From NCBI GenBank assembly GCA_017428925.1, contig JAFRPY010000121.1, positions 1-33,982 of the forward strand: a stretch of DNA of 33,982 bases, written 5' to 3'. Source of the DNA: Prevotella sp. GTDB lineage: Bacteria; Bacteroidota; Bacteroidia; Bacteroidales; Bacteroidaceae. The notes under the pieces were generated by a model, which saw only the letters and a program-made list of their open reading frames with translations, ran no database searches and was not told where the DNA came from. The position numbers and the translations under genes are program-made. Of this stretch, positions 15,519-32,650 are shown piece after piece. Each line of letters starts with the position of its first letter. The first letter of the stretch is position 1.

Positions 15519-15558
15519 ATTATCTAATCTTTTTACCGAGTCGCGAGGTAAAGAATCC

Positions 15559-15575: not shown

Positions 15576-15621
15576 CAAGGTGACTTTTGAAAGGGAAACG
15601 AAGTTTGTCCGCACAAAAGTA

Positions 15622-16289
15622 CAACTTGCTTGGAATACTCCATATATAATTCTGGAACCACATGCAAAGTTAAGAATATATCTTGAAAGTCGAACTTTTT
15701 AAGTCCACTTTTTTATTGGCTAAAATCTTGACATTCATTTCGTTAACTGAATATTATTATAAATGTGTATTAGTATAAAAAACTAATAGACTAATTAGAT
15801 AATAAGATAAATGATTATTGCAAAAAAACAATAATCAACAAAAATATTGTTCAACTAATAATGTTTTATGGTAAAGGACAAAAACACTGTTATAATAATT
15901 TATTAATAATGTTTTATTATAATATAGCAAACTTCTTTTGGTATAATAATATAACGAGTGCTACTAATCTCACGATCTGTAGCACTCTGCCTGATACTAA
16001 GAATTTCTCTTAGCAATATGATGTTCTTATAAACAGCTGGGAAAAAGGCATAAAAAGTGGACTGCCCACCATGCTTTCCCTACGTCCGGCCCGACGCACA
16101 TATACACACAGTAAAGCAGCCCACGGTATGGGCTGTTTGCTGTGCTTTCGTATATGTTGAAACTGGCCGGTTTCGGGAAAGAAAGCACTTCTTCTCAGGA
16201 CTGGAGGCAACAGCGCACCCCCAATCAGGTGCAAAATTACGAAAAAACATCGTAAAACACTAATAATCACATGAAAAACTGTAAATTGT
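15622..16289. other. AT-rich non-coding region with inverted and direct repeats
   Basis: No gene is supported. The stretch is very AT-rich up to about 15955 and carries AATAATGTTTTAT twice (15857-15869, 15905-15917). It has a perfect 9-bp inverted repeat GAGTGCTAC/GTAGCACTC (15956-15964, 15979-15987), a CTAAGA/TCTTAG hairpin (15997-16013), and a GC-richer part with CAGCCCA-CGGTA-TGGGCTG (16117-16135). It may be a transfer or regulatory region. Short frames on both strands around 16010-16270 look like shadows. Confidence 0.5.
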
Positions 16290-17174
16290 TCATCTTCTTT
16301 CGTCTTTTATGGAATGGATAGGGCTTAGCCTCACTACATAAGGTATTCCTTTCCTGTCAAAGGAATAGGCTGGCCTGTTAAAACAATGTATGTTCACGTC
16401 AAGATTCTCCCTTAGGAGATCTACTGTAAGGTTTGAGTGTGGTCCATTCTCGATGCCCTACCCATGTGAGATTCCTCCATCCGGACTGATTAACAACTCA
16501 TAACTACTGTTCCTCAGGGAAAATGTCCTTGCATGCTTTGTGTTCCCGACGTTTAAGGAGTATTTGTCACCAACAATCTAGTCCATACACAATCGAAGGA
16601 AATCATCTCTATGTTCTGGAAAAGAGAATTTGCGATCAATCTTCAGTGTCTTATCATCAAACATGATCCGGAAATCCTTCCTCGACAAATTGATTTCTAT
16701 TGACTGGTACTGCAGTTTGAACAGATCCTTCATTCTTCTGATAAACTGTGCCAGGATTAGGCATCCAACGGGACTGTTCAAATACCTGTCCTCATAGACG
16801 AGCTTCACAAGTCCATCCTTCATAAACACATCCTGGACGAAATGCCATTTGTCTGTGTGGTATTCCATCAGAAGATCGAGCAGTTCATCACTATACATGT
16901 TTTGGACGACATTAAAGCTCATTGTAAATCCTTCTTTGGACATGCTTAATCTTTTCAACTTGTCAACATCGATAGCTCTATATATGAGTTTTTCAATGAC
17001 GTTTACAACTTTCTTGGAATCAGCATCCTCCCATAGAGGGTTGACTTTTCTGAAATACTTAGTCATTGTTGACGTTATTCTCTCTTTGTGGATTGGTTTT
17101 ATCCAATCCACATTCTGTTCTGAGTTCCAGCCCTCAGCGTTACAGGGCATCGCATTTGATTTTTTGGTCTCCAT
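16290..17174 (-). pseudogene. Unknown plasmid gene interrupted by two in-frame TAG codons
   Basis: From ATG 17174 (METKKSNAMPCNAEGW) the frame runs to TAG at 16578-16580, giving 198 residues. The same frame continues with protein-like sequence for 39 codons (IVGDKYSLNVGNTKHARTFS ...) to a second TAG at 16458-16460. It then runs a further 55 codons (GIENGPHSNLTVDLLRENLD ...) to TGA at 16290-16292. Read through, the product would be 294 residues. ATG 17174 is preferred to the TTG at 17198. No domain was recognised. The WYL regulator gene ends 44 bp upstream on the same strand, so the two were probably co-transcribed. Both interruptions are amber codons, one base from Trp, Gln, Glu, Lys or Tyr. 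Because TAG also ends the neighbouring 77-aa and WYL genes normally, decay is more likely than recoding. Confidence 0.65.
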
Positions 17175-17218
17175 TTTGTTCAAATTAGTTGACCACAATA
17201 TATCAATCTTCGTCGACT

Positions 17219-18352
17219 CTATGTCGACAATTCGTAATTTCTCATTGATCTTTTGAGTTTTTTTACGATTTCGTCCCTAAGTTCGCAATCAGTCAGGATG
17301 GTAACAGCGTCACCATAAGACAAAAACTTATGAACAAGTTCTTTGTTGGGGACTACCCTTATGGAAAAGATTGCACACTCATGTTCGCGGCAAACCAAAA
17401 CCTGACTATGGTGAATTGGATCGTCAATGAAGGTACGTATATATCTATGGGAAACCTGAAATTTGATGGTTACGGGATTTTTTCCTATTTCTCTATGTAT
17501 ACCATAAATGTCACTAAAGTGCGCATCCAAATCGATTTCCGTAGGTTCGTACGTTTCCTCTGTAAAATAGACTTTACGTATTCTTTCTAGTTCGATGAAC
17601 TGCAATACCTCTCCTTTTGTCATCAATACGGCTACCAGATACCATTTCTGCGCAAACTGCTTCAAGTAGTAAGGAAACACCATCACCTGGACCGATATGG
17701 AATCGTTATCCAAGTAATTTATTTCTATAGTTTTTTTCTCCATGATGGCAAGGAATAATCCCTGAAAACATTTTTGGCTGATCTTTCCTATGGCCACATC
17801 AAATTCAAGGATAGTCTTTGAACCATCCTTCAAAGGAACATCCATAGACGAGCAAAGCATCTGGATCCATTTTACTTTAGGGAAACCCTTACACCGTGTA
17901 AGCATCCGCAGGGCATATCTAAGTTCCCAACTTTGTTCCTCGCTCAAGCCAGTATCAAATATGGAGAAATCAGTTTTCTCATATCTGTATCTGATAACAC
18001 GTGAATCTTTCGTATCTCTCATTCTCTGGATCCTTATATGGTATTCGTTCGCGATTTCTGTCAAGTCTTTCAGAATAGTGTCCTTCGTTTTGACTGGGCA
18101 TATTCCCCTTTCTTCCAGACTTTCGTTTACAACATGGAGCATTTCATGAATTGTTACTCCTTCTCTCTTTCTAAGTAGGCCATCGAGTGCTTTGACTCTC
18201 AGGCAAAAATTCTTATTATCAGGCATATATAATGATTTAGTCTCAATTCTCTTTTCCAAGTCCAACATTGGGAGCAAAAAAGACCCAGATAGCAAATTCT
18301 CTTCATCATACTTTGTGGCATGTGGAAAGTCCTGGCATCCGGTACTGGCCAT
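17219..18352 (-). CDS. WYL-domain transcriptional regulator, 377 aa
   Basis: The N-terminal part (CLRVKALDGLLRKREGVTIH ... TKDTILKDLTEIANEY) is a winged-helix-like DNA-binding region. The C-terminal part has the WYL core (KKTIEINYLD ... MVFPYYLKQFAQKWYLVAVL ... QFIELERIRKV) and the trailing WCX-like extension (VTIKFQVSHRYIRTFIDDPI ... ). Such regulators sense ligands or nucleic acid and often control mobile-element or defence genes. ATG 18352 is chosen over the GTG at 18418, because a TACCTTTG -7 box (18384-18391, minus strand) sits just upstream of it. The gene is followed by the amber-interrupted gene and is divergent from a small membrane-protein gene. Stop is TAG. Confidence 0.8.
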   Translation of the reverse strand: MASTGCQDFPHATKYDEENLLSGSFLLPMLDLEKRIETKSLYMPDNKNFCLRVKALDGLLRKREGVTIHEMLHVVNESLEERGICPVKTKDTILKDLTEIANEYHIRIQRMRDTKDSRVIRYRYEKTDFSIFDTGLSEEQSWELRYALRMLTRCKGFPKVKWIQMLCSSMDVPLKDGSKTILEFDVAIGKISQKCFQGLFLAIMEKKTIEINYLDNDSISVQVMVFPYYLKQFAQKWYLVAVLMTKGEVLQFIELERIRKVYFTEETYEPTEIDLDAHFSDIYGIHREIGKNPVTIKFQVSHRYIRTFIDDPIHHSQVLVCREHECAIFSIRVVPNKELVHKFLSYGDAVTILTDCELRDEIVKKLKRSMRNYELST

Positions 18353-18383
18353 TTTACCTGGTCCAGCATAAACATTAATTCTG

Positions 18384-18391
18384 CAAAGGTA
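18384..18391 (-). promoter_or_regulatory. Candidate -7 box of the WYL regulator gene
   Basis: TACCTTTG on the minus strand matches TAnnTTTG and lies about 32 bp before ATG 18352. A clear -33 TTTG was not found. Confidence 0.4.
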
Positions 18392-18508
18392 AATGACAAG
18401 AGTGCAGTCATTCTTCACTCATAAAAGCATTATCTGGCAAAGCTCTAATAAGTTCGCATATATCATTGTGAGTCATTGTCTTTAGTCAAATGTTTGGCAT
18501 TGAAAAAC

Positions 18509-18538
18509 TTGTATATTTCGATTTTTTTTGTATCTTTG
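18509..18538 (+). promoter_or_regulatory. Promoter of the small membrane-protein gene
   Basis: TTG (18509-18511), a 19-bp spacer and TATCTTTG (18531-18538) match the Bacteroidales TTTG/TAnnTTTG promoter. It is 16 bp before ATG 18555. Confidence 0.65.
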
Positions 18539-18554
18539 TAAGATAATAAAACAG

Positions 18555-18731
18555 ATGTACAAGATAAAATTTAGTTTGTGTATGATGGTATTTGGATTCT
18601 TTTTTACGCTCGTTTATAGCATCTGCAGAGGAGTGCTATTGCTGGTGGCTGCCACTTTGAAAACAGTCGGTAAAGTATTGTTATACGTAACCGGATATGG
18701 TCATCAAAAAGCAGATAGTCATCGTCTCTGA
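18555..18731 (+). CDS. Small membrane protein of unknown function, 58 aa
   Basis: ATG 18555 follows a good promoter; the upstream TTG at 18528 overlaps the -7 box and is rejected as a start. The protein (MYKIKFSLCMMVFGFFFTLV ...) has one or two hydrophobic segments (about residues 7-36) and a basic, His-containing tail. Its last codons form the left arm of a strong hairpin (18711-18749), so gene and terminator overlap. It is divergent from the WYL gene, which might regulate it. No family was recognised. Confidence 0.55.
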   Translation: MYKIKFSLCMMVFGFFFTLVYSICRGVLLLVAATLKTVGKVLLYVTGYGHQKADSHRL

Positions 18732-18749
18732 AGTACGATGGCTATCTGC
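18711..18749 (+). terminator. Hairpin overlapping the end of the small membrane-protein gene
   Basis: GCAGATAGTCATCG (18711-18724) pairs with CGATGGCTATCTGC (18736-18749): 14 bp with one G-U. Only a weak T-rich tail (CTTTAG) follows. Confidence 0.55.
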
Positions 18750-18910
18750 TCTTTAGTCGGTTTGTATGGCGTTCTTCTCAAACTGCTTTACAATGAGCTT
18801 CATAGCATGTTCATAGTTCTTTCTCATTTATTTCAAATCATGCTTCGTCAGCTGTCGACCATGCCTGGCATATACAAATAACATCCGTTCATGCATAGAT
18901 TTTTGTCTGT

Positions 18911-18933
18911 GGAGGGGATTGTTTCACCCCTCC
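18911..18933. terminator. GC-rich hairpin downstream of the DUF2958 gene
   Basis: GGAGGGG (18911-18917) and CCCCTCC (18927-18933) form a 7-bp stem, 9 bp past the DUF2958 stop on the minus strand. No U-tract follows, so terminator activity is uncertain. Confidence 0.4.
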
Positions 18934-18942
18934 GTTAGACCA

Positions 18943-19335
18943 TTAGTGATCGTTGAAGTTACTGACGTAGTCCTGAACATAGGGACAATCAATGTCTTTC
19001 AAGGACGTTGGAGTGAAATACTCGTCGCGCTCGATACAGACTGTTCCCAATGTTACCTTCTTACCTCCCATGTTCACGTTGAAGGGTACTGCAATTTCTT
19101 CTAACTCCTTCAAAGTGAAGTAACCGAGTTCCCCTTCACCGGCACCGTTAATGACCAGCCCAAAGAACAGATAGCCGAAATCAGCATCTTCTCTTGCTTC
19201 TGTAACATACCATGTCCATGCACCAAGGGGAAGAAAGAACTTCACTATGGCTTCTGCGTTCATTCCACATTCCTCCTGGGAATAAAGGGGATGGCTTTCC
19301 AATAATTTCTTGGTTTCTTCATTTACAAGTTTCAT
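18943..19335 (-). CDS. DUF2958 domain protein, 130 aa
   Basis: ATG 19335 is preceded by GGAGAC, an unusually good ribosome binding site for this group, and is preferred to the TTG at 19341. The protein follows the DUF2958 pattern: LLESHPLYSQEE, then IVKFFLPLGAWTWYVTEARE, then FGYLFFGLV and ELGYFTLKELEEI. Function of the family is unknown, but it is carried mainly by plasmids, phages and integrative elements. It lies 11 bp after the stop of a 77-aa gene in the same operon, within the plasmid-like segment and towards the replication origin. Confidence 0.85.
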   Translation of the reverse strand: MKLVNEETKKLLESHPLYSQEECGMNAEAIVKFFLPLGAWTWYVTEAREDADFGYLFFGLVINGAGEGELGYFTLKELEEIAVPFNVNMGGKKVTLGTVCIERDEYFTPTSLKDIDCPYVQDYVSNFNDH

Positions 19336-19346
19336 ATTCAAGTCTC

Positions 19347-19580
19347 CTATTTTTTGATGAAATATTCTATTGCACTATGTACGAGGATAAAGTGTGTCCG
19401 TGTTTGCTTACATTGGTCGCTCCACGGATTGTAGAAGTCGAGCGAGAGCCCATGATATAAGTCCGGCAACTCTTTTTTGATTTTCTTGATGAGAAGCTCG
19501 TAATTTGCTTTTCTCGCGCCTTTCATCAGTTCATTCCACCTGTCGATGCCGATGGATGTGCAGTCTGTCTCTAAATACAT
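19347..19580 (-). CDS. Plasmid-type hypothetical protein, 77 aa
   Basis: ATG 19580 begins MYLETDCTSIGIDRWNELMK. The sequence is charged and globular (ANYELLIKKIKKELPDLYHG ... HFILVHSAIEYFIKK) with no membrane segment. Similar short proteins accompany DUF2958 genes on Bacteroidales mobile DNA, to my recollection. Stop is TAG, immediately followed by the GGAGAC site of the DUF2958 gene, so the pair is an operon and may be translationally coupled. No function is assigned. Confidence 0.7.
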   Translation of the reverse strand: MYLETDCTSIGIDRWNELMKGARKANYELLIKKIKKELPDLYHGLSLDFYNPWSDQCKQTRTHFILVHSAIEYFIKK

Positions 19581-20030
19581 ATTCAGTCTGTTTGTGGCAG
19601 TTGGTTAGGCCGCCGTTCCCTTGCCTTATTCTTATTCCCTTTTGTTTTAGCCATCTGGCTCAACTTCGGGATAAGATTTTACATAGCAATGAAAACAGGC
19701 TTGATAAGCTATGAAGACAAGTAATTTGTGAGAAAAGCCAAGGAATACCCAGATTTACAATCTGTGGAAGGCTTCCATGACTTTTCTCGGCAAATAGAGG
19801 GAACGGTGCTTGTCGGATAGTGCCAAGACTGTACCTTTGCGGCGTAAAAATTTGTGTCGAAGGTGTCCTTTGGCCAATACAGACTTGGGACAACGGGTGA
19901 ATAATTGTCCAAAAGGCGTATTCTTTTCCCAAAAAGTCCGAAGTTTCATAAAGCTTTATTTATTTATTATTTTTAAAGCTTTATTTATGGAAGGCGTCAA
20001 CAAACGGTTTTCAAAAGGCATTTCAAGATT
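19581..20030. other. Origin-proximal region, mostly non-coding
   Basis: No secure gene was found. A 64-codon minus-strand frame (19755-19949, MKLRTFWEKNTPFGQLF..., basic) could be a small protein, but it has neither promoter nor recognised relatives. The right end holds AAAGCTTTATTTAT twice, 25 bp apart (19950-19963, 19975-19988), an AT-rich candidate unwinding element next to the iterons. Confidence 0.45.
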
Positions 20031-20113
20031 AACTTCCGAGAAAATGCGCTGAACTTCCGAGAAAATGCGCACGAACTTCCGAGAAAATGCGCTGAACTTC
20101 CGAGAAATTGCGC
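20031..20113 (+). repeat. Four replication iterons (plasmid origin)
   Basis: AACTTCCGAGAAAATGCGC occurs at 20031-20049, 20052-20070 and 20074-20092. A fourth copy at 20095-20113 has one mismatch. Spacings of 21, 22 and 21 bp place the copies on the same helix face about two turns apart. Together with the AT-rich repeats on the left and the Rep_3 gene on the right this is a typical iteron origin. Confidence 0.9.
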
Positions 20114-20171
20114 ATTAAAATGTTAAAGGATTTAACAATACTGTATTTTTGGAACTTTAAACAAGAAAAAG

Positions 20172-20179
20172 TAACTTTG
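20172..20179 (+). promoter_or_regulatory. Candidate -7 box of the rep gene
   Basis: TAACTTTG matches TAnnTTTG and lies about 60 bp after the last iteron, so initiator binding could repress it. A TTG around 20148-20150 is a possible -33 element. A TGTGCT/AGCACA hairpin (20181-20197) follows at the start of the leader. Confidence 0.5.
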
Positions 20180-20228
20180 CTGTGCTTAGATAGCACATAT
20201 ATCAATAAGCCAGGCGGTAACTGTTGGT

Positions 20229-20291
20229 ATGGAACCCTCAGTTGGGCACGTCCGTCTGAATAATCGTAAAGCATCACAGCGTGTCATGTGA
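20229..20291 (+). CDS. Possible 20-aa leader peptide of the rep gene
   Basis: ATG 20229 to TGA 20289-20291 encodes MEPSVGHVRLNNRKASQRVM. It ends 13 nt before ATG 20305 of rep and overlaps the alternative GTG start at 20281, an arrangement that would allow translational coupling. There is no conservation evidence. Confidence 0.25.
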   Translation: MEPSVGHVRLNNRKASQRVM

Positions 20292-20304
20292 GCATTTGGA
20301 ACGT

Positions 20305-21594
20305 ATGCAACTGCATCAGAACGAAATAATATACCCTTTAAGTTTCACCCATATCTGTCATGAGCAGATTAGGTGGAGCAATAATCTCATCAACTCCCCG
20401 ATGTGTTACACCCTACTGGAAAGAAGGGTGATGTATTTCTTGACAGGCCAGGTAAAAAAGAAGTTCTTAGAAAAGGGACTGGGCATACCAGAGAATTGGA
20501 AAGACCTAGTATTCTACCTTCAGGACAAGGATCTTGGTATTATTGGAGGGAAAAAGAATGTTCCACGTACCTATGAGACACTCAGTGCCCTTGGTGGAAA
20601 GTTTTACCCTGTAAAGTACAAAAATGAAGAAGGTAATATTGTCGTAGGTAAGATTCACTGGATTGACTCTTTCTTCTATGACAAAGAGAGAAATCTCTAT
20701 GCTGTCAGGGTTTCACCCGAGATAATGAGGTATTTAATCAATCTTACTCGAGATTTTACGTCATTTGACCTTGGAACTGCTATGAGATTGAAATCACGTT
20801 TTACCCAGAAAATGTACGAACTGTGTAGTGAGTTTGGTGGTAATTTTAGGTTTTATGATAATACAGAATATCAGTTGGGTAATACATATAAAGAGCGTGT
20901 TGTACCTTTGCATATAGATTCCTTCAGAACTCTTTTCAGTTTAAATGAAGAACGGGACCTGAGAACGGGGAAAAGTATCAGGTGCTCTTCATATACAGAC
21001 TACACAGATATTCGTAGGTATATTCTAGAGTCTTCTCAAAGAGAATTGTTAGCATTGTATATGATCGGTGAGTCTAATTTGTGGTTTGATTTTCAACCAG
21101 GGCCAAAGACTGGTAAAGGAGGGAGAGTTTCCTCCATCTTCATTTATATTTACTCACGAGAGCATCCTAAAGTAGGGGAGCAACGTCCATGGAAAAAGGG
21201 CGATGATCCTCTTATTCCATTTGAAACGGTAGCATCGGTAGAAGAAAGGAAAACTCCTTATCAAAAGTTACATTCCAACATCTGGTATGGTAGTGAAAAC
21301 CTTGATATTGTAGTCAGGCAGATGCTGTCTCGCTATCTTACTAAGAGGGAGGTCGCTTACTATATGATGGAAATTCAAAAGGAATCACGGCAGCATAAGG
21401 ACAGCTATATTCAAGTTGTACAAATCTTGCAGGAGAAGGAGAACCAACCAAAGTTCTCCAAGGGGACGAGACAATACAAGCGTAACAATATCATTGATTA
21501 TGCATTGAAAGAGAATTTAAAAGTGTTTGGGTGGTCTATTCAACCACCAATTAGTAGAAGCAAAAGAGATGTAGAGCAGGATTCCTTTGAATAA
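20305..21594 (+). CDS. Rep_3-family plasmid replication initiator, about 429 aa
   Basis: The protein is a RepB/Rep_3-type initiator with tandem winged-helix domains. LLERRVMYFLTGQVKKKF lies near the N-terminus. RVSPEIMRYLINLTRDFTSF and TAMRLKSRFTQKMYELCSEF mark the centre, and DYTDIRRYILESSQRELLAL starts the second domain. It would bind the four iterons just upstream to start replication. ATG 20305 (MQLHQNEIIYPLS) is chosen; GTG 20281 would add eight residues. The C-terminal 120 residues are charged and less typical. No frameshift is seen, so the initiator may still be functional although the replicon lies in what looks like a chromosomal contig. Confidence 0.9.
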   Translation: MQLHQNEIIYPLSFTHICHEQIRWSNNLINSPMCYTLLERRVMYFLTGQVKKKFLEKGLGIPENWKDLVFYLQDKDLGIIGGKKNVPRTYETLSALGGKFYPVKYKNEEGNIVVGKIHWIDSFFYDKERNLYAVRVSPEIMRYLINLTRDFTSFDLGTAMRLKSRFTQKMYELCSEFGGNFRFYDNTEYQLGNTYKERVVPLHIDSFRTLFSLNEERDLRTGKSIRCSSYTDYTDIRRYILESSQRELLALYMIGESNLWFDFQPGPKTGKGGRVSSIFIYIYSREHPKVGEQRPWKKGDDPLIPFETVASVEERKTPYQKLHSNIWYGSENLDIVVRQMLSRYLTKREVAYYMMEIQKESRQHKDSYIQVVQILQEKENQPKFSKGTRQYKRNNIIDYALKENLKVFGWSIQPPISRSKRDVEQDSFE

Positions 21595-22179: not shown

Positions 22180-22662
22180 TTACTGAGCCTTTGCAGGAGC
22201 AGCGGGAGCAGCTTCCTTGGCAGCAGCAGGTGCAGCCTCCTTAGCAGCAGCAGGTGCAGCCTCCTTAGCGGCAGCGGGAGCAGCTTCCTTAGCGGCAGCG
22301 GGAGCAGCCTCCTTGGCGGCGGCATCCTTAGCAGCGGGAGCGGCCTGCTGACCAGCACCGAATCCCTGTGTATTGGTAGGATTGGTGGTCTGGGTCTCAG
22401 TGGCTACGTTCTCGAGCACGCTCTGCTCTGTGACCGACTTCGGTGCGACGTAAGCGCAGATGACGCTGAAGATCACCATTGCAGCGGCGAGGCTCCATGT
22501 GGCCTTCTCGATGACATCGGTGGTCTTGCGGACACCCATGATTTGGTTTGAGGCGGAGAAATTCGAAGAAAGACCACCGCCCTTAGACTCTTGAATGAGC
22601 ACGATGCCGATCATCAGCAGTGCTGCGATAACGATAAGAATTACGAATAATGTGTAAACCAT
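22180..22662 (-). CDS. secG: Preprotein translocase subunit SecG with Ala/Lys/Glu/Pro repeat tail, 160 aa
   Basis: SecG is the small inner-membrane partner of SecYE that helps SecA-driven export. Two hydrophobic segments (about residues 2-22 and 52-72) flank the conserved loop QESKGGGLSSNFSASNQIMG, which identifies the family. After residue 75 comes a low-complexity tail. It ends in five near-identical copies of KEAAPAAA (coded within 22190-22325), which are absent from ordinary SecG of about 75-120 residues. The gene is last in a minus-strand run after the sigma-54 activator, lptE and a TPR gene. ATG 22662 is unambiguous, 7 bp after the TPR gene's stop. Confidence 0.93.
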   Translation of the reverse strand: MVYTLFVILIVIAALLMIGIVLIQESKGGGLSSNFSASNQIMGVRKTTDVIEKATWSLAAAMVIFSVICAYVAPKSVTEQSVLENVATETQTTNPTNTQGFGAGQQAAPAAKDAAAKEAAPAAAKEAAPAAAKEAAPAAAKEAAPAAAKEAAPAAPAKAQ

Positions 22663-22669: not shown

Positions 22670-23449
22670 TTATTTTTGTTTGTTGTTTTGTTTGTTATTC
22701 AATATCAATTTCTCAAGGAATCGAATTTGGTCTGCAAAGTAAGCATTTTTTTTTGGATAATTCAAATTTAAACGCTGAATAATTTCTAAAGCTTTGCTAT
22801 ATCGCCCTTGTTTTATGTAAATTTTGGCTAAAGTCTCGGTAAAATAGCCATCATCGTCGTCGTTTTCGTCACCATCGGTGAGCATTTGCACTTCTGGTGT
22901 GAAGTCGATTTCGTCCTTGAGCTGTATCTTGCCGCCCTCGTTCTCGATGAAGTTGTCGATGAGGTCCTGACCCTTCATCTCGGGTGCTGGCTCAGAGGAC
23001 GGTTCCTGATTCAGCTCGTCCTCGATGTCGAGCAGGTATGCTACATAGTCGACGGCCGCATCGGCAGGGGTGGGCTTGCGCCGCGCCACGGGTTGCTCGT
23101 CTTCGTCCTTGGGGATGGAGTCGAGGAAGTTGTCGATGAGGGCAGCGGTGCGGTCGGCGGCAGGCTGTTCCTGGCGCTTTTCCGAAACGGCGGCTTTCTC
23201 CTTGGCGGCGGGTGCCAGCTGATAGTGTCCTGCCTCGACGAGTTGGAAGAGCTTGCTGCGGTCGGTGAGGTAGATGGCCGCGCGTCGCAGCTCCTCGTCG
23301 AACGATGCATCGTGCAGCAGATAGAGGTTCTTCAGCAAGAGCAGCCGAGCGGGCTGGTAGTAAGGATGGAGCGCAAGGAGCGAGCGGAGATCGTAGAGCG
23401 TCTCCTTGTCGAACCTTTCGGGGTGCTTGATGAGTGTGGTGAGTTCCAT
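22670..23449 (-). CDS. Tetratricopeptide-repeat-like hypothetical protein, 259 aa
   Basis: The N-terminus (MELTTLIKHPERFDKETLYD ... LRSLLALHPYYQPARLLLLK) is helical. The C-terminus (TETLAKIYIKQGRYSKALEI ... LNLNYPKKNAYFADQIRFLE) is a clear TPR-type helix pair. The middle is acidic and disordered, with two similar short motifs LIDNFLDSIP and DLIDNFIENEGG. No signal peptide is seen, so it is probably cytoplasmic. Its place between lptE and secG, with tight spacing, suggests a role linked to envelope biogenesis, but the function is unknown. Confidence 0.85.
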   Translation of the reverse strand: MELTTLIKHPERFDKETLYDLRSLLALHPYYQPARLLLLKNLYLLHDASFDEELRRAAIYLTDRSKLFQLVEAGHYQLAPAAKEKAAVSEKRQEQPAADRTAALIDNFLDSIPKDEDEQPVARRKPTPADAAVDYVAYLLDIEDELNQEPSSEPAPEMKGQDLIDNFIENEGGKIQLKDEIDFTPEVQMLTDGDENDDDDGYFTETLAKIYIKQGRYSKALEIIQRLNLNYPKKNAYFADQIRFLEKLILNNKQNNKQK

Positions 23450-23475: not shown

Positions 23476-24033
23476 CTACCAGTTGGCAACGGTGGCGTTG
23501 AAAATCTGGTCGGTGATTTCCTTCACCATCTGCGTGACAAGTTCTTCCTGCACGGAATTGAGCGACTGCGTGGACTCATACGCCGAGGTTGCCGTGAAGG
23601 AGCGCTCGAAGTCGTCGGAGTGCTTCTTGTTGTTGGTAAACCGCACATTGACGGTCATCGACAGCTCCACCTGTGCCGAATAGCCTTCGCTCGACACCGA
23701 CTTGTTGCGCTGCGTGTACTGCGTGATCTCGCCCTCAATCTTCAGGTCGCCATTGCGCTTCACCTGTATAAGCTTAGTGTGGTTGGCGTAGATATCCTTC
23801 AGCTGGTTGTTGAAGAGCGGTCCCATGGGTCCCCACACATAGCTGGCGCGAATGGGGAAGTCCACTATCTCGATGGTCTTCGTCGTGCTGTAGTCGATGC
23901 TGGCACCGTTGAAGCTGTAGTGGGGCACGCAGGAGGTCTGCATGAAGCAGCCTAACGGCAGCCATAGCAGCAACAGCCACAAGCGGAGACTCGTGGCGCG
24001 ACTGGCGATGTGTTGGCGAAAGACTTTCTTCAT
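23476..24033 (-). CDS. lptE: LptE-like LPS-assembly lipoprotein, 185 aa
   Basis: ATG 24033 gives MKKVFRQHIASRATSLRLWL, a hydrophobic stretch and a permissive lipobox QTSC with Cys at about residue 35; the TTG at 24060 is less likely. The mature part (YSFNGASIDYSTTKTIEIVD ... PLFNNQLKDIY ... GDLKIEGEITQY ... VTQMVKEITDQIFNATVANW) follows the LptE fold pattern of a lipoprotein that plugs the LptD barrel and aids LPS insertion in the outer membrane. It lies between the sigma-54 activator and the TPR gene in the same direction, a familiar Bacteroidales order. Confidence 0.85.
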   Translation of the reverse strand: MKKVFRQHIASRATSLRLWLLLLWLPLGCFMQTSCVPHYSFNGASIDYSTTKTIEIVDFPIRASYVWGPMGPLFNNQLKDIYANHTKLIQVKRNGDLKIEGEITQYTQRNKSVSSEGYSAQVELSMTVNVRFTNNKKHSDDFERSFTATSAYESTQSLNSVQEELVTQMVKEITDQIFNATVANW

Positions 24034-24110
24034 ATATTTTGTTTCTTGTTGAATGGGCAATGCGAAGCCTTTATAGGGGCGAGGCTATTGTTACTTTTCT
24101 CCCCGCAATC

Positions 24111-25358
24111 TTATTTCTCCTTTTCGAGGCCGAACTGCTTCAACCGGCGATAGAGCGTGCGGTCGCTGATGCCCAGCTCCTGCGCAGCACGTTTGCGATT
24201 GCCGCCGTTGCGCTCGAGAGCCTTCTCGAGCATCTGTCGGCTGAGGTCGGTGAGGTTCAGGCTCTCCGGCTCTTTGATTTCCTCGGCTTCGGCATCCTCC
24301 AGGGGGAGCGACGACGACATGCCACTATTGCCGGCGACGGGCGCTACAGTCATTCCCGAGAGGTCGACAGCCTGTATGGGGTGTTGGAATCCCACGGCGC
24401 CGTTGAGCCCGCGGGCCTCGTCGAGTTGCTTGCGCAGGCTGTTCATGTCGCGACGCAGGTCGCTGACGTTGCCGCGCAACTCGTAGAGAATCTTATAGAG
24501 CAGCTCGCGCTCGCTCTCGTAGGAATGCGAGCCCTTGTCGCCAATAACGGCGAGCTGCATGCTCTCTGGGTCTTTTGGAATGTACTTCAGGAGTGTCTCC
24601 ACATCGATTTCGCGCTTCTCGCTGAGCACCGACATCTGCTCGGTGATGTTCTTCAGCTGACGCACGTTGCCTGGCCACTTGTATTGCAGCATGAGGCGCT
24701 TGGCATCTTCGGAGAGCGTGATCTTCGGCAGGTGGTATTTCTCGGCCATCTGACTGGCGAAGAGGCGGAACAGCATGAGGATATCCTCGCCGCGGTCGCG
24801 CAAGGCAGGCATCTGGATGGGGATGGTGTTCAGACGATAGTACAGGTCTTCGCGGAAGCGTCCCTCGCTGATGGCCTTCGTCAGGTTGACATTGGTTGCA
24901 GCGACGATGCGGACGTCGGTCTTCATGATCTTTTGTCCGCCCACACGGATGTACTCACCCGTTTCGAGCACTCGCAAAAGTCGTGCCTGAGTGGCGAGCG
25001 GCAGTTCGCCAACCTCGTCGAGGAAGATAGTGCCTTTGTTCGCCACGCCGAAATAACCTTCGCTCTCACCGATGGCTCCGGTGTAAGATCCCTTCTCATG
25101 ACCGAACAGCTCGCTATCGATGGTGCCTTCAGGAATGGAGCCGCAGTTGATGGCAAAGAACTTCTCGCGCCGACGGGGTGAGTTGTCGTGGATGACGCGT
25201 GGGATGATCTCCTTACCTACTCCACTCTCGCCCACGATGAGCACGCTCAAATCGGTGGGTGCCACCTGCAGGGCGACATCCAAAGCATGGTTCAACGCAT
25301 CGCAATTTCCTACGATGTTGTACCGACTTTTCACCGTTTGTAGTCTACTACTATCCAT
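24111..25358 (-). CDS. Sigma-54-dependent transcriptional activator (AAA+ and Fis-type HTH), 415 aa
   Basis: The AAA+ domain begins near residue 12 with no receiver or sensor domain before it. Walker A is GESGVGKE (43-50). The sigma-54-contacting loop is GSYTGA (90-95, a variant of GAFTGA). Walker B is GTIFLDE (109-115), and GRFREDLYYRLN carries the arginine fingers. A coiled-coil-like stretch (about 275-310) leads to a C-terminal Fis-type helix-turn-helix (NGGNRKRAAQELGISDRTLY). It should activate RpoN promoters by ATP-driven remodelling. Lack of an N-terminal input domain implies control by level or by a partner. It heads the lptE-TPR-secG run, and a TAATTTTG box (25369-25376, minus strand) lies just upstream. 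Confidence 0.92.
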   Translation of the reverse strand: MDSSRLQTVKSRYNIVGNCDALNHALDVALQVAPTDLSVLIVGESGVGKEIIPRVIHDNSPRRREKFFAINCGSIPEGTIDSELFGHEKGSYTGAIGESEGYFGVANKGTIFLDEVGELPLATQARLLRVLETGEYIRVGGQKIMKTDVRIVAATNVNLTKAISEGRFREDLYYRLNTIPIQMPALRDRGEDILMLFRLFASQMAEKYHLPKITLSEDAKRLMLQYKWPGNVRQLKNITEQMSVLSEKREIDVETLLKYIPKDPESMQLAVIGDKGSHSYESERELLYKILYELRGNVSDLRRDMNSLRKQLDEARGLNGAVGFQHPIQAVDLSGMTVAPVAGNSGMSSSLPLEDAEAEEIKEPESLNLTDLSRQMLEKALERNGGNRKRAAQELGISDRTLYRRLKQFGLEKEK

Positions 25359-25418: not shown

Positions 25419-26459
25419 TCATTTCTTGGGATTCTGCTTGTCAATTTTAATAAGCAGAAGCCCAATTCCGGTCCAAATGAGTTCCCTGATGCGCACGATA
25501 AGTGCGACGAAGGTTCCGGCGCTGGCCGTCATTCCAAGTCCGTTGACCGACATCAGGAAGCCGCCTTCGCGACCACCCAACTGCAGCGGCATGAAGAAGA
25601 GCAAATTGGCAAACAGCGACGTGAAAGCCAGGATGAGCACACACTGGATGTAGTTCACCGAAGGCATGAGGATGAGCAACACGAAGAACACCTCGAGGGC
25701 AGCTCCGAAGCGGCACAGCAGTTCCAACACAACGGCCAGCACGAAACTCTTCGGATTCTGGTTGTGGAGTGCTGCTATCTGCTGGTCGACGGTGTCGAGT
25801 TGCTCGCGGTGCACCTCGATGAAGCCACGTGCCCAGCGCTTCACGAAGGGAACATGTCGGAGGATTTTCATCGCCCTGACTGCCAAACCCTTCCGATAGC
25901 CCACCATGAAAAACCACAGGCCAAGGATGCAGAACGAGCCAACGATGGTTAGGACGGTTCCCATGAAGACGTTCACGGGCCGTGTGAGGATATAGAGGAA
26001 GATGGAGATGAACCAGAACCAGAAGTGGCTGAAGATGTGAGTCATCGCATAGAGGATGACCGACGACGAGGCACGCGCGGTACCTATCTTCGGCGCCAGC
26101 TCCATCACTCTATAGGGCTCGCCGCCCATGAGGCCGCCGGGTGTGGCGTAGTTCAGGGCGAAGCCGCTGACCGTGACCTTATAGAGCCACCAGAAGGAGA
26201 ACGGCGTTGCCGAGACGGGCTTTCCCGACTCCTTCGACAACCTTGCGAGCTCCTCATTGGGCACCTGCGCCTTGATGATGACAAACCACGCCGCCGCATT
26301 GAAAACATACAAAACAGTCCATAGTGCCACTACTGCAAAGAACCAGTAGCCAGCATGCTTCAGTCCGCTCCAGACTTGAGCGAAGTCGAGCTGGGTAACC
26401 ATCACGATGAGCACCAGCAGTCCGAAGGCAAAAAAGCCGTTTTGATATTTCTTCTTCAT
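25419..26459 (-). CDS. Lysylphosphatidylglycerol synthase-type membrane protein (UPF0104), 346 aa
   Basis: A polytopic inner-membrane protein with about eight hydrophobic segments. It carries the family features [16 protein letters not shown] and [18 protein letters not shown], seen in the flippase half of LPG synthases and in stand-alone UPF0104 proteins. It lacks the cytosolic aminoacyl-transferase domain of MprF, so a lipid- or polyprenol-handling role is more likely than lysine transfer. It is downstream of the PdxA-like gene on the same strand. ATG 26459 starts [12 protein letters not shown], and the length is normal for the family. Confidence 0.85.
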
Positions 26460-26547: not shown

Positions 26548-27633
26548 TTATGCCTCAGCTTTCGGCTCTTTCGGTTGCTCTTGTTGATCGTTCTTCTCGT
26601 TCTCGCGTCCCTCGCGCTTCTTGGGGATGGCGAAACGCACCTTCTCGCTCTCATCGCGCTTCTCGTGATAGAGCTTCGGCAGCGGATTTGCCAACGGCGC
26701 GTCGTAGTTCTTACGGTTGCGGGCAGCATCGATGACGGCGTAGAGAGCCTGACGGAACGGAGCCTCATCAACCTCGTTGTGTCCGGCAAGCTCGAACGAC
26801 GGACCGTAGCACGAAGCAGCACACGGCACGAGTAGGCCTGCCACATAGACGATGTTGTCGGCAGCAGAGAGCGCCTTCAAGGGTGCCACACCCTGATCGT
26901 AGTACATCGCCAACACGGCGTCGAACGAATGATACTTCTCGGTGCCGAAGAAGTCGCTGGCAGCAAACGGACCATAGGTCTGCTTACCCGATGCCACGAG
27001 TTTCTGGATGGCAGGCGTGATGATCTCGCGCTCCTCTACCCCATCAGCATTGGAGTTGAGGGCGAGGACAGCCACGCGCGGATTGCCCACTCGGAGGTCG
27101 CGCTTCAGCATCGCGAAGAGCATTTCGGCCTTGCGGATGATCAGGTCGGTGGAGAGCTGTGCTACGACGTCCTTCATCGACATTCCGCTGGTTGCCACAG
27201 CCACACGCAGCGGCTCGGCCATGAGCAGCTGCAGGCCTGTAGCCTCCAGGCTGGCATTGGTCTCAAGCGGACCGAGCAGGAGCGCATCGTAAGCTCCGTT
27301 CTTCATGTCGGCAACCGCCTTACCCAAGGCTTTGTCGCCTGCCTTGCGGGCTTCATCGGTGGCGTTACCCAGCTCCACTTTCACTTCCTCATCGAAACAA
27401 GTGATGAGGTTGATGCGACCGTCGCGCACCTCGTCGGCAGAGCTGATGATGCTAAACATCGTCTCCGTGCCCAGCGCCTTGCGGTGATAGGTGGCGAGCT
27501 TCGGCGAACCATAGATGACGGGCGTGCAGAGTTCCAGCATCTCCGGCTCGGCAAAGGTTTTAAAAATCAGTTCATATCCAATACCATTGGTATTGCCATG
27601 CGTGATGGCGACGCGGATTTTCTTTTCTTCCAT
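26548..27633 (-). CDS. pdxA: PdxA-like protein lacking the metal-binding histidines, 361 aa
   Basis: The fold is that of 4-hydroxythreonine-4-phosphate dehydrogenase (vitamin B6 synthesis): RVAITHGNTNGIGYELI, CTPVIYGSPKLATYH, RVAVLALN, YGPFAASDFFG, FDAVLAMYYDQG. ATG 27633 is used; the longer frame overlaps rlmN. However, key residues are gone. The histidines that bind metal in E. coli PdxA (166, 211, 266) align by eye with G150 (ATSGMSM for TTHLPL), N195 (LNSNADG for LNPHAGE) and Y245 (MYYDQG for MYHDQG). The HGTA motif reads YGPS (276-279), and the GHTE segment between residues 121 and 141 is missing. The last 30 residues are a charged tail. Catalysis is therefore unlikely, while the frame is intact, suggesting a retained pseudoenzyme or a new role. 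Confidence 0.85.
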   Translation of the reverse strand: MEEKKIRVAITHGNTNGIGYELIFKTFAEPEMLELCTPVIYGSPKLATYHRKALGTETMFSIISSADEVRDGRINLITCFDEEVKVELGNATDEARKAGDKALGKAVADMKNGAYDALLLGPLETNASLEATGLQLLMAEPLRVAVATSGMSMKDVVAQLSTDLIIRKAEMLFAMLKRDLRVGNPRVAVLALNSNADGVEEREIITPAIQKLVASGKQTYGPFAASDFFGTEKYHSFDAVLAMYYDQGVAPLKALSAADNIVYVAGLLVPCAASCYGPSFELAGHNEVDEAPFRQALYAVIDAARNRKNYDAPLANPLPKLYHEKRDESEKVRFAIPKKREGRENEKNDQQEQPKEPKAEA

Positions 27634-27673: not shown

Positions 27674-28735
27674 TCAGCGCGGCTCACCCTGCTGACGGGC
27701 GGTGCTGAGCAGGCCGCAGGCGGCATAGATGTCCTGGCCACGCGAAGCACGGATAGTGGTGAACACACCATGAGCCGTGAGGTAGTCGCGGAAGCGCAGC
27801 ATCGTCTGCTCGTCGGCACCGTGGAGAGGCACACCGGGAATCTGGTGGAAGCGTATCAGGTTGATACGGCAGTCGAGACCGCGCAAGAGGTCGACGATGG
27901 CTTTGGCGTGAGCCATGGAATCGTTGAGTCCGCCGAACACGATATACTCGAACGACAGGCGGCGCTGGTGAGCGAAGTCATAGCCTCGCAGCAGCTCCAC
28001 GACCTCGCTGATGCTCATCGCCTTCTCGGAAGGCATGAGCTGTGCGCGCTGCTCGTGAAGTGGCGAATGCAGGCTGATGGCGACGTGGCAAGGGCTCTCG
28101 TCGAGGAATCGCTTGAGCTTCCCGCGCACGCCAACGGAGCTCACCGTGATGCGCTTCGGGCTCCACGCCCATCCCCAGTCGGCGGTAAGCACCTCGGTGG
28201 CTCGCAACACGGCATCGAGATTGTCCATCGGCTCACCCTGTCCCATGAAAACGATGTTCGTGAGCTGCTCACACTCGGGAATGGCATAGATCTGATTCAA
28301 GATGTCGGCAGCGGTGAGGTTACCGTGCCACCCTTGCTTACCAGTCTGGCAGAACAGGCAGTTCATCTTGCAGCCCACCTGGCACGACACACACAGCGTG
28401 GCACGCTCGCCGTCGGGAATGAACACGGTTTCGACGAACCGCTCTTCCTCTCGGTGAGCATCGTCGGCGCAACGCACGGGCAACAAGTATTTCACCGTGC
28501 CGTCAACGCTGTGCTGACTGTCGGCAGGCGGCATGCAGCCAACTTCGTAGGCTTCCTTCAGACGCTCGCGGTTCTGCTTGGAGAGATTGGTCATCTCGTC
28601 GATGCTCTTCACATGCTTCACATAGAGCCACTGAGCTATCTGCCCCCCCGTGAAGGCAGGCATGCCCAACGATTTTGCCACATCTTTCAGTTCGGCCAAT
28701 GTCATGCCTAAAAGGCGCTGTTTTGTGGAATCCAT
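27674..28735 (-). CDS. rlmN: Dual-specificity RNA methyltransferase RlmN, 353 aa
   Basis: A radical-SAM enzyme that methylates C2 of A2503 in 23S rRNA and A37 in some tRNAs. The cluster motif is CKMNCLFC within CVSCQVGCKMNCLFCQTG. It also has VFMGQGEPMDN and ITVSSVGV, and the catalytic cysteine region is at the C-terminus (RGQDIYAACGLL). ATG 28735 (MDSTKQRLLGMTLAELK) is preferred to the TTG at 28756. The length is normal. It is first of a minus-strand run with the PdxA-like and UPF0104 genes and is divergent from the SpoIID-fusion operon. Confidence 0.95.
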   Translation of the reverse strand: MDSTKQRLLGMTLAELKDVAKSLGMPAFTGGQIAQWLYVKHVKSIDEMTNLSKQNRERLKEAYEVGCMPPADSQHSVDGTVKYLLPVRCADDAHREEERFVETVFIPDGERATLCVSCQVGCKMNCLFCQTGKQGWHGNLTAADILNQIYAIPECEQLTNIVFMGQGEPMDNLDAVLRATEVLTADWGWAWSPKRITVSSVGVRGKLKRFLDESPCHVAISLHSPLHEQRAQLMPSEKAMSISEVVELLRGYDFAHQRRLSFEYIVFGGLNDSMAHAKAIVDLLRGLDCRINLIRFHQIPGVPLHGADEQTMLRFRDYLTAHGVFTTIRASRGQDIYAACGLLSTARQQGEPR

Positions 28736-28760
28736 GATGCATTTAGCCACTTTCAACCTG

Positions 28761-28849: not shown

Positions 28850-31800
28850 ATGAGAGAACGCATAGATTGTTTCCTGCCTTGCAACGATCTCGAAGCCGTC
28901 GGCCCAATGGTCGAAGCGTTGCGGCAGAACAAAGATGTGAGAAAGATATTCCTACTCGTAGAACCTGATTTTGAAAAACATGCCGTAGCCGCAGAAGGCT
29001 GCCAGACGCTCGTCGTCGGCGACCTGCTCTCCACGGAAACCATGCGGCTCGTCAGCACGACAGCTGCCGCCGACTACATCCTGCTCAACCTGAAGACGCC
29101 GCCCGTGATGCCGGGAGCCAATGCACTGGCCCGCATGACAAGGGCTGCTGACGAGACGCAGGCAGCAATGGTCTACAGTGACTATCTGGAAGAACAGTCG
29201 GTGGGCAGCGAGAAGCGAGTCGTCAAGCATCCCGTCATCGACTATCAGGAAGGTTCGCTGCGCGATGACTTCGACTTCGGACCATTGGTATTGCTGCGCA
29301 CCTCGCTGGCGAAAGCTTGGGCGAAGGCCACCGATGCGCAAGAGCAGAATGGCGACACACGCCACGTATACCGCTTTGCCGGTTGGTACGACCTGCGCCT
29401 CTTCCTCAGTCGCCAGCAGCAGTTGTTCCATCTGAACGAGTTGCTCTACACCACCATAGAACTCGACACGCGCAAGAGCGGCGAGCGGCAGTTTGACTAT
29501 GTGAACCCACGCAACCGCGACGTGCAGATCGAGATGGAGACGGCGTGCACGCAGCATCTGGAAGCAGTACATGCGCTGGTTGACACCACCTCATATGCTG
29601 ACATCGACTTCGACGAGCAGGATTTTGCCGTTGAGGCATCGGTGGTGATTCCCGTCTTCAATCGTGCAAAGACCATTCGCGATGCTGTAGAGAGTGCACT
29701 GTCTCAGCAGACACAATTTGCGTTCAACGTCATCGTGGTCGACAACCACTCCACCGACGGAACAGGCGAGATTCTTGCCAAGTTCAAGGCGGACTCAGAG
29801 GAAGCCCAAGAGCGACTCATCGTCATCACTCCCGAGCGCAACGACCTAGGCATCGGAGGTTGCTGGAACGTGGCCATCAACGATGAACGCTGCGGACGCT
29901 TTGCCATACAACTCGACAGCGACGACCTCTATTCGTCGCCACAGACGCTGCAGCACATCGTCGACGCGTTCTACGAGCAGCGGGCAGCGATGATTGTGGG
30001 CTCATACCGCATGTGTAACTTCCAACTGGAGACACTTCCGCCAGGACTCATCGACCACCGCGAGTGGACCGATGGCAACGGCCCGAACAATGCGCTGCGC
30101 ATCAACGGACTCGGAGCACCGCGCGCCTTCTTCACACCGCTGGTCCGGCAGTTGCAGTTCCCCAACACCAGCTATGGCGAAGACTATGCGATGGGACTGG
30201 CCTTCAGCCGCCAGTGGCGCATCGGCCGCATCTACGACGAGCTGTATCTCTGCCGCCGCTGGGAGGGAAACAGCGATGCCGCCCTCTCCATCGAGAAACA
30301 GAATGCCAACAACCTCTATAAAGACCGTCTGCGCACGATGGAACTCCACGCACGCCAGATGGAGGAGAACCCGAATCGCGAGACACCGCTGACCCGCTTC
30401 TTCGACCGACAGTTGGAGAAATGGGGCGATGCCAACCGACGCTATCGCGACCTGTCGAATGTGCAGACGCGTGAGCTCTCGGCAAGCGATACAACGCTGC
30501 GCATCCAATGGAATCCAGCACGCATGGTGTCGACGGGTGCGAAGATAGACCAGAAGACCATCGGCGAGCGCCCATGCTTCCTCTGTGCGAAGAACCGTCC
30601 CACGGAGCAGTTCTCACGGACGATGACGAGCAGCGACGGCAAGCATAGCTATGAACTGCTCGTGAACCCCTACCCCATCCTGCCCATGCATTTCACGATT
30701 CCGCTGACGAGTCATGAGCCCCAACGCATCAGCGGCCATTATCCGATGATGCACCAGTTGACGAATCGCTATCCTGATATGATGGTGTTCTACAACGGTC
30801 CTCGCTGCGGTGCCTCTGCCCCCGACCACATGCATCTGCAGGCAGGCACCAACGGCGTCATCCCGTTGCAGCAGAGCTGGCCCCGACTGAGCCGGAACCT
30901 CGAAGAGGTGTTCAGCCTGAACGACGATGCCGGCATCTCGCTCCTGCGCGACTTCGTGTGTCCGGCATTCGTACTGCGCAGCAAAGACCAAGCCGACGAT
31001 GCACGGCTATTCGAGATTCTTTATCATATGCTGGATGCGGAAGAGAACACTGATAGCGCTGAACCTATGATGAACATCGTGGCTTGGCGACAAGAGGAGA
31101 CGCTTGTCTCGGTGGTATTCCCACGCCGGAAGCACCGGCCCGACTGCTATTTCGCCAACGACGCCTCGCAACGGCTTGTCAGTCCTGGTGCACTCGATAT
31201 GTCGGGACTCATCATCACCCCGCGACAAGACGACTTCGAACGTCTCACAGCCGAAGAGGCCACAGCCATTCTGCGCGAATGCAGCCTCGACGACGATGCC
31301 ATGCAGCGTCTCGCCGACCAACTGCGGCAGACGGGGAGCGAGCTCCTCAAGGCCAAGAACCAGGAACAGGAGGAGCATGGCGAGGAACCAAATGTCACCG
31401 TGGGCATTGTGAGTGCACAGCAGATACGGTTCACGCTGAACAAGCCGTACACCGCAAAAGGTGTCGACATCACAGGCACGCAGGTGGTGGAGTTTGCCGA
31501 GGGTGGCATTCTCTGGAATGGCAACCAATATCGCGAGCTGCACTTCCGGCCGAAGCGCACCGACGCATCGTTCTCGCTTGAGGACGTGGTCATCGGCGTA
31601 GGTTTCCACTGGGAGCGCAAGGAGACGCAGACCTTCCGCGGCTCGCTGCATCTGGTGGTGGAAGCCGACCAGATTTGCGCCATCAACGAGCTGCCCGTCG
31701 AACAATATCTTGAGAGCGTCATCTCCAGCGAGATGAGCGGCACCTCGTCGCTCGAGTTGCTGAAAGCGCATGCGGTCGTTTCGCGCTCGTGGCTACTGGC

Positions 31801-32650
31801 ACAGATGAAGAAGCGCGAGGAGAACAGCGACCGCCGCGACAACTTCTTCTCATTCATCAAGAAGGACGATGAACTCATCCGTTGGTACGACCGCGAGGAG
31901 CACACCATCTTCGACGTCTGCGCCGACGACCACTGTCAGCGCTATCAAGGCATCACGCGTGCCGCCAACCCGCATGTGGCAGAAGCCATCAAGGCGACGA
32001 AGGGTCAGGTGCTGATGTCCGACGGTCAGGTGTGCGACACCCGTTTCTCGAAGTGCTGCGGCGGTCGAACTGAGGAATATCAGTATTGCTGGGAGAACAT
32101 CACAAAGCCGTATCTGCAGTCGGTGGATTGTCCGTGGTGCAACACGCACGACGAGCATATCATCCGACAGGTGCTCAACGACTATGACCAAGAAACCGTC
32201 GACTTCTACGAGTGGACGGAGACCATCAGCGCGAAGCAGATTGGCGAGTGGCTGCAGAGCAAGCTCGGCATCGACCTGGGTGCCATTCAAGACCTCGTTC
32301 CTGTGGAGCGCGGCAAGAGCGGTCGCATCTGGAAACTGAAGTTCGTGGGCACACAGGGCACCTACACCATCGGCAAGGAGCTTGAGATACGCCGTGTGCT
32401 CTCGCCCACTCATCTGAAGAGCAGCTGCTTCGATGTGGAGAAACTGGTCGACAAGCTGCCGCCGTCGGTGGAGGCTGCCGCCGAGGAACACGATGCCGAT
32501 GACATCACCTTTGTTCTGCACGGTCGCGGCTGGGGTCACGGCGTTGGTCTCTGCCAGATTGGAGCCGCCGTCATGGGTGAATCAGGAAAAGACTATCACG
32601 AAATCTTAACACATTATTATAAAAATGCAGACATCAGAAAGACCTACTAA
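28850..32650 (+). CDS. Glycosyltransferase - DUF4922 - SpoIID fusion protein, 1266 aa
   Basis: Three parts are fused. Residues 1-520 are glycosyltransferase-like: a divergent N-terminal half with YSDYLEE and [10 protein letters not shown], then a family-2 domain from about 265 ([42 protein letters not shown]). Residues about 520-845 are DUF4922, with a HIT/GalT-like HxHxQ in [10 protein letters not shown] (about 657) and [13 protein letters not shown], suggesting a nucleotidyl-transfer or phosphorylase reaction. From about 847 comes a SpoIID/LytB domain with [16 protein letters not shown] (putative catalytic Glu near 960), [11 protein letters not shown] and [15 protein letters not shown]. No signal peptide or membrane segment is seen, odd for a domain acting on peptidoglycan. 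It overlaps the AmpG-like permease gene by 26 bp, so handling of imported cell-wall fragments is a good inference. Confidence 0.9.

Follow-up and report, generated by a model that had tools for sequence, protein, structure and literature searches.

PdxA and related proteins

PdxA is 4-hydroxythreonine-4-phosphate dehydrogenase (TIGR00557, PF04166), for which structures from Escherichia coli (1ps6, 1ptm) and Salmonella (1r8k) are available. It is bracketed within the PdxJ route of vitamin B6 synthesis in one account (PMC6593275). A protein of the same superfamily, PdxA2 or D-threonate 4-phosphate dehydrogenase, belongs to the D-threonate/D-erythronate pathway and is encoded next to a DUF1537-type kinase. 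A broad survey of pyridoxal phosphate (PLP) genes distinguishes PdxA2, a protein of organic-acid catabolism, from PdxA and uses pdxJ as the pathway marker; its main text contains no word beginning with 'Bacteroid' or 'Prevotella' (PMC9997740). A gut-metagenome study counted pdxA together with pdxB and pdxJ as B6 genes, mainly of Bacteroidota (PMC12973552). The passages seen of five further papers (PMC2689231, PMC10470040, PMC12300143, PMC6232779 and PMC5320631) add nothing on degenerate PdxA in Bacteroidales, and a search of titles, abstract openings and some passages, with the subscription literature mostly outside its reach, found no published report of it. Such a protein is described here. 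It is encoded in a stretch of 33,982 nucleotides of Prevotella sp. DNA (contig JAFRPY010000121.1 of assembly GCA_017428925.1), and this whole stretch is called the window.

Conserved pseudoenzymes are a familiar class that includes pseudokinases and those dead paralogs of metabolic enzymes that serve as scaffolds or regulators. The PdxA-family protein of the window resembles them in that its predicted fold and the selection on it are kept, whereas the catalytic residues are lost. It differs from them in that a single ortholog, and not a duplicate, has lost its site, apparently repeatedly and together with the pathway. Unlike the characterized PdxA proteins, it lacks the three histidines, the GHTE and HGTA motifs, and the counterparts of N283 and R292. 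Probably the protein is a pseudoenzyme, kept for a second, non-catalytic function that Bacteroidales PdxA performs in addition to B6 synthesis; from the comparative sequence evidence we give this reading a probability of about three in four.

The window gene and its lost active site

The frame runs on the minus strand from position 27633 to 26548 and encodes 361 residues, uninterrupted from ATG to stop. The Pfam PdxA model scores 184 bits (cut-off 27) on the protein. The NCBI equivalog model of PdxA, TIGR00557, gives 153 bits, below its cut-off of 290, and the PdxA2 model NF002891 gives 67.5 against a cut-off of 583. The genomic context is not that of a PdxA2 gene either, because the neighbors are rlmN and an LPG_synthase_TM gene instead of a DUF1537-type kinase.

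Residues were placed with a MAFFT alignment of 144 rows that includes E. coli K-12 PdxA. The positions of E. coli H166, H211 and H266 are occupied by G150, N195 and Y245, and H297-G-T-A300 reads Y276-G-P-S279. T125 pairs with K123 of the E. coli protein and S128 with its S144, which leaves a gap of about 18 residues that takes in GHTE. We take the histidines to be metal ligands and assume the usual roles of GHTE, HGTA and the substrate residues, as the sequence-only reading did for the PdxA motifs of the window. That reading had reported the same substitutions, the same deletion and the open frame, all of which are borne out. It had also pointed out that histidines conserved at shifted positions would speak against it. 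The only histidines of the protein are H12, H50, H235, H285 and H323, all of them ten or more residues away from the three lost positions. The protein is predicted to keep the PdxA fold, as had been supposed: an AlphaFold2 model fits solved PdxA at 1.8 Å across 301 superposed residues.

Of 581 matches in a search for related loci, 80 were kept. The six closest among the matches listed (58-68% identity) have open frames and none has all three histidines; the window gene is therefore neither a chance occurrence nor a sequencing error. Orthology is evident from the position downstream of rlmN, which is the same in genomes with and without PdxJ. The window protein is a degenerate PdxA ortholog in which the catalytic residues are lost, and close pairs of such degenerate copies show purifying selection on the protein. 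Its dehydrogenase activity is, we infer, absent, and an annotation as a B6 biosynthesis enzyme would be misleading, as the sequence-only reading had warned. The features of the locus are collected in Table 1.

Table 1. Positions in the window of the degenerate pdxA gene, its altered sites and the genes around it
Feature	Position	Strand	Basis
Degenerate PdxA ortholog (probable pseudoenzyme), 361 residues	26548..27633	-	Pfam and NCBI models, alignment, AlphaFold2
Residues 125-128, site of the ~18-residue GHTE gap relative to E. coli PdxA	27250..27261	-	alignment
Codon of G150, place of metal ligand His166	27184..27186	-	alignment; codon place computed from residue number
Codon of N195, place of metal ligand His211	27049..27051	-	alignment
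Codon of Y245, place of metal ligand His266	26899..26901	-	alignment
YGPS (276-279) replacing HGTA	26797..26808	-	alignment
Conserved C-terminal segment, residues 301-336: end of the last helix and NPLPKLYHEKRDESEKVRF tail	26626..26733	-	alignment
rlmN, directly upstream (40 nucleotides); neighbor conserved in the genus	27674..28756	-	profile matches, genus loci
LPG_synthase_TM / UPF0104-type membrane protein, downstream (88 nucleotides)	25419..26459	-	profile match
Sigma-54 activator (AAA+ and Fis-type helix-turn-helix), downstream	24111..25358	-	profile match
LptE, further downstream	23476..24060	-	profile match
TPR protein	22670..23449	-	profile match
SecG	22180..22662	-	profile match

Loss of the active site and absence of PdxJ

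The association between the state of PdxA and PdxJ was examined by profile searches for PdxA, PdxJ and PdxS in 150 genomes of the genus of the window organism. PdxA-family matches were found in 144 genomes, PdxJ in 36 and PdxS in 71. The set analyzed comprises 143 orthologous sequences from 142 genomes, the source genome contributing two. Left out were G043 and G068 (fragments at contig ends), G107 (PdxA2 only), G053 (not fetched), and G002, G041, G096 and G133, which gave no match. All 30 PdxA sequences analyzed from genomes with PdxJ are identical to E. coli PdxA at 14 tabulated site positions (HTE, H166, H211, HDQ, K274, N283, R292 and HGT). None of the 113 sequences from genomes without PdxJ has all three histidines: 54 have none, 56 have one and three have two. 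Different clades carry different residues at the lost positions.

The gene is nevertheless kept. Of 114 genus genomes without PdxJ, 112 have a PdxA-family match, and the 113 sequences are all uninterrupted, with lengths of 279-466 residues. The ortholog is present in all 55 high-quality genomes without PdxJ; PdxS occurs in 43 of these, and the other 12 lack both routes. Of 14 control genomes, five gave PdxA-family matches and four have PdxJ, and only one of the ten controls without PdxJ had a match; keeping PdxA without PdxJ is therefore not the usual outcome there. The practice of counting pdxA as a B6 gene would be wrong for the 112 genomes.

When named species among the matches listed are classed by the form of PdxA alone, irrespective of PdxJ, the degenerate form is found in Prevotella denticola, P. 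histicola, P. jejuni, P. corporis, Hallella colorans, H. seregens, Hoylesella buccalis and Segatella paludivivens, and the intact form in Xylanibacter muris and Marseilla massiliensis.

The state of the three histidines changes at least 14 times on a FastTree RlmN tree of 203 loci (from 213 loci with RlmN) and 11 times on a quick RlmN tree of 136 loci, from which named loci without known PdxJ status were left out. Both trees are quick ones, on which starred branches are less trustworthy and change counts can be inflated, and the counts alone do not separate loss from gain. For pairs that differ in PdxJ and lie on separate supported branches, the state of the histidines agrees with PdxJ in seven, disagrees in none and does not differ in one (p = 0.016). 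On the plain reading of these sequence comparisons the active site appears to have been lost repeatedly, with the loss of PdxJ. An enzyme that repeatedly loses its site along with its pathway, and is hardly ever dropped, is strong evidence, on comparative grounds, of a hidden second function.

The association extends to the family. Among 121 genomes (source included), 118 have a PdxA-family match and 93 have PdxJ. PdxA scores at least 353 bits in genomes with PdxJ, except for one copy split over two contigs, and at most 308 bits in genomes without PdxJ, except for G162 (339), G167 (371) and G175 (373). The histidines are kept in 19 of 19 loci from genomes with PdxJ, and at least one is lost in 17 of the 21 loci fetched from genomes without it. 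Three further genera of the family (g2, g10 and g13) contain both states of PdxA.

At the level of the order (149 genomes, source included), all 130 high-quality genomes have a PdxA-family match and 117 of them have PdxJ. At least one histidine is missing in nine of the 16 genomes without PdxJ that were followed up (source left aside), and the site is intact in all 11 controls with PdxJ. The reduced genome G358, of 1.2 Mb, carries a very degenerate PdxA that has an open frame and scores 44 bits with the Pfam model; the gene adjoins an oxidoreductase gene with an iron-sulfur domain of the dihydroorotate dehydrogenase B type. Among 197 genomes of the class, PdxJ is missing from seven, of which five (G428, G471, G499, G557 and G581) are not Bacteroidales. 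Judged by scores alone, PdxA reaches 362-375 bits in four of these five and an E value of 1.6e-95 in G581. The degeneration of PdxA is thus an observation on Bacteroidales only.

Selection on the degenerate protein

The ratio of nonsynonymous to synonymous substitution (dN/dS) across relatives, which the sequence-only reading had proposed as a check, is low in close pairs. All seven degenerate pairs at dS 0.01-0.7 have dN/dS of 0.046-0.173 with a median of 0.079. Twelve close pairs chosen by hand fall in the same range, and rlmN gives 0.004-0.162 in 11 of them; the distribution over all pairs comes from a separate analysis. For the window gene and its six nearest relatives among the matches listed the values are 0.15-0.24, all at dS above 1.2, that is, for distant pairs only. 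The degenerate state is old, because distances between clades are near synonymous saturation.

These values bear on the suggestion that the gene is a decaying relic, open by chance or through recent loss of function. In its favor are the clear degradation of residues, the much reduced length of some forms, and a rise of dN/dS to a maximum of 0.65 in deep pairs. The ratio is below 1 in every pair measured, however, and the near-universal presence of the gene in genus genomes without PdxJ, with every frame open and at least 279 residues long, also conflicts with decay, as does the age of the degenerate state. On the close-pair ratios a relic or pseudogene is rejected, and we regard it as very improbable.

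Although the degenerate protein is under selection, this acts over less of its length than in active copies. Twenty-nine alignment columns with a conservation of 95% or more among active copies fall below 50% in 100 main-form degenerate sequences (the 113 without 13 short or odd rows; elsewhere the main forms number 104, nine being set aside). Among them are the columns of the three histidines, of N283 and R292, and of the HGT motif. In the N-terminal 60 residues the mean frequency of the top residue is 0.78 in degenerate and 0.83 in active copies, and in the core of the C-terminal tail it is 0.83 in both. Main forms show hardly any variation in the N-terminal GDxNGxGYE motif. Fifty positions are conserved in the degenerate sets of all three levels (genus, family and order). 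Four of these residues are invariant even in nine short forms: D179, D302 and R307, where E. coli PdxA has other residues, and L318, which has no counterpart there.

The pattern also bears on whether the pocket has been rebuilt for another reaction or substrate, giving a new, metal-free enzymatic activity. Consistent with this are the kept predicted fold and the conservation in main forms of Q247, G221-P222 and N193 near the old site, and faster protein change in degenerate lineages would fit adaptation. However, new residues should have become fixed if the copies shared a new activity, whereas at the 29 positions the commonest residue stays below 50% and clades differ, which leaves room for clade-specific activities. 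We consider a new activity unlikely. The sequence-only reading had proposed a retained pseudoenzyme or a new activity; this is supported. A non-catalytic function is preferred to a new activity shared by the clades, since no new consensus is seen in the emptied pocket.

The C-terminal tail

E. coli PdxA stops where the C-terminal tail of the window protein begins and has no such tail. The consensus of the tail is NPLxKLYxEKRDxSEKxRF, and residues 323-361 of the window protein have a predicted local distance difference test score below 50 in the AlphaFold2 model. A comparison of the tail with solved proteins found no homolog at E values up to 5. The tail is kept in Bacteroidaceae, even in nine short forms with a collapsed body, in which the GDxNGxGYE motif is largely lost; these forms are alignable mainly in the C-terminal half, and their low identity elsewhere may be partly misalignment. 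In close pairs synonymous change in the tail is ordinary, so the constraint there acts on the protein. In some short forms (L158, L160, L162 and L164) the tail continues into a basic conserved stretch, KKKGFNPAEHRRENV, that the window protein does not have.

A possible second function

The second function would probably be shared by the active enzyme and, we infer, lies outside the active site. A lineage that lost PdxJ would turn to PdxS or to salvage, and selection on the PdxA active site would then end. Metal and substrate residues would drift away, differently from clade to clade. Selection on the remainder would persist and so retain the fold and the Bacteroidales-specific residues D179, D302, R307 and L318, and in Bacteroidaceae the C-terminal tail as well. 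Our guess for Bacteroidaceae is a scaffold or adaptor that would present the flexible tail to a partner, either protein or RNA. The tail is reduced in other families, and there the role would fall to conserved body residues. A more specific version is that PdxA has two jobs, of which the non-catalytic one is nearly indispensable and predates the loss of the B6 role; in Bacteroidaceae it would reside largely in the disordered tail, docking to a conserved partner, such that the body can collapse. This version is a serious but tentative possibility. A hint comes from Porphyromonas gingivalis, for which pdxA is named essential in a paper whose main text does not mention pdxJ (PMC3547785).

Several observations weigh against a conserved second function. 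The essentiality of pdxA in P. gingivalis could simply reflect a need for B6. The tail motif is rare outside the family, being present in six of 28 order-level sequences (one of the 28 is a PdxA2), and it cannot be the whole story because degenerate PdxA persists where the tail is rare. The median dN/dS of degenerate pairs is 0.46 at dS 0.7-0.9 (n = 34), compared with 0.12 in active pairs (n = 2), and 0.36 at dS 0.9-1.2 (n = 185), compared with 0.14 (n = 32). This rise is in part saturation of dS and in part real relaxation, and selection is clearly weaker overall. It is expected, however, when an active site is lost, and it is the close pairs that carry the argument for selection.

Other points concern the association with PdxJ and the constancy of the locus. 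Among family genomes without PdxJ, G174 and G200 keep the histidines and have lost other site residues, and PdxA looks intact in G167 and G175, which are 81% and 89% complete. At the order level, G368 and G373 keep the histidines with other sites altered, and PdxA is intact or nearly so in G277, G314, G365, G385 and G408. The high-quality family genome G187 has neither PdxJ nor a PdxA-family match, and two class-level genomes with PdxJ have no PdxA-family match. Finally, rlmN is upstream of pdxA in only five of 28 order-level loci, which have short flanks, and gene order varies there.

Genomic neighborhood

The tight operon with rlmN and a UPF0104 gene described by the sequence-only reading is present. 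The sigma-54 activator gene follows the LPG_synthase_TM gene after a further 60 nucleotides, and all genes from rlmN to secG are on the same strand. Of the genus loci examined, 109 of 112 from genomes without PdxJ and 30 of 32 from genomes with it have rlmN upstream in the same orientation. A DUF4837 gene lies between rlmN and pdxA in about half of the genus loci (72 of 149, some genomes being counted twice). Among family loci with sufficient flanking sequence, 30 of 38 have it immediately before pdxA, as does the order-level degenerate locus L322, and the window locus lacks it. Two order-level relatives that were followed further have other pdxA neighbors. In genus, family and these two order-level loci, no partner emerges from the neighborhood. 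In E. coli K-12 (L170), pdxA adjoins rsmA, for a ribosomal RNA methyltransferase, and surA, for envelope assembly, a loose parallel to rlmN and lptE here.

A sigma-54 gene is downstream of pdxA in many genus loci. This would suit a ligand-binding sensor, in which the dead PdxA binds nicotinamide adenine dinucleotide (NAD(H)), PLP or a sugar phosphate and regulates perhaps the sigma-54 activator, and the near invariance of GDxNGxGYE in main forms is compatible with it. Substrate-site residues are lost in most sequences, however, the nine short forms have largely dispensed with GDxNGxGYE and kept the tail, and L322 has an EPSP-synthase-family gene downstream in place of the sigma-54 gene. A sensor is therefore doubtful, and slightly more so than a new activity.

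The tight spacing here and the conserved gene order in the family could also mean that the frame is kept only for translation coupling or for an overlapping nucleic-acid element, and not for its protein. In close pairs, however, low dN accompanies ordinary dS, the tail included, which indicates selection on amino acids, and the protein is retained by order-level relatives whose gene order differs. Of the explanations weighed, this one has the least to recommend it and hardly needs to be entertained.

Other B6 genes and PdxA copies in the source genome

The source assembly amounts to 3.56 Mb in 122 contigs and is 85% complete with 5.4% contamination. A search for pdxJ had been suggested by the sequence-only reading; neither PdxJ (PF03740) nor PdxS has a match in this 85%-complete assembly. 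The suggested search for a second, canonical pdxA did find a copy with intact motifs on contig C112 (341 bits). By score this copy passes TIGR00557 (337 against 290) and fails NF002891 (335 against 583). It is probably not a B6 enzyme, because it adjoins an SBD_N/NBD_C (former DUF1537) kinase gene as PdxA2 genes do. A second intact B6 pdxA is therefore rejected and the copy is probably PdxA2-like, a label that rests on the kinase neighbor; in contrast to the window protein, it keeps the active-site motifs.

Contig C111 (L128, L319) carries a second degenerate PdxA ortholog, 49% identical to the window protein. Because this copy has rlmN, DUF4837 (directly upstream of pdxA) and sigma-54 neighbors of its own, the assembly probably mixes two Prevotella-like species.

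Other features of the window

Positions 11889-21594 of the window are a mobile island with IS110 and DDE transposases, a WYL protein and a plasmid-type Rep3 initiator. The G+C content is about 38-41% at 14 to 22 kb and 53-59% at 22 to 32 kb. On the plus strand, positions 822-5888 encode a protein of 1688 residues with seven DUF285 stretches and BspA-type leucine-rich repeats, which is probably a surface protein. It is followed at 5901-8201 (plus strand) by a frame of 766 residues that has no Pfam match and a G+C content of 64%, far above its surroundings. Positions 28850-32650, also on the plus strand, encode a fusion of 1266 residues that joins a family 2 glycosyltransferase to DUF4922 and SpoIID domains.
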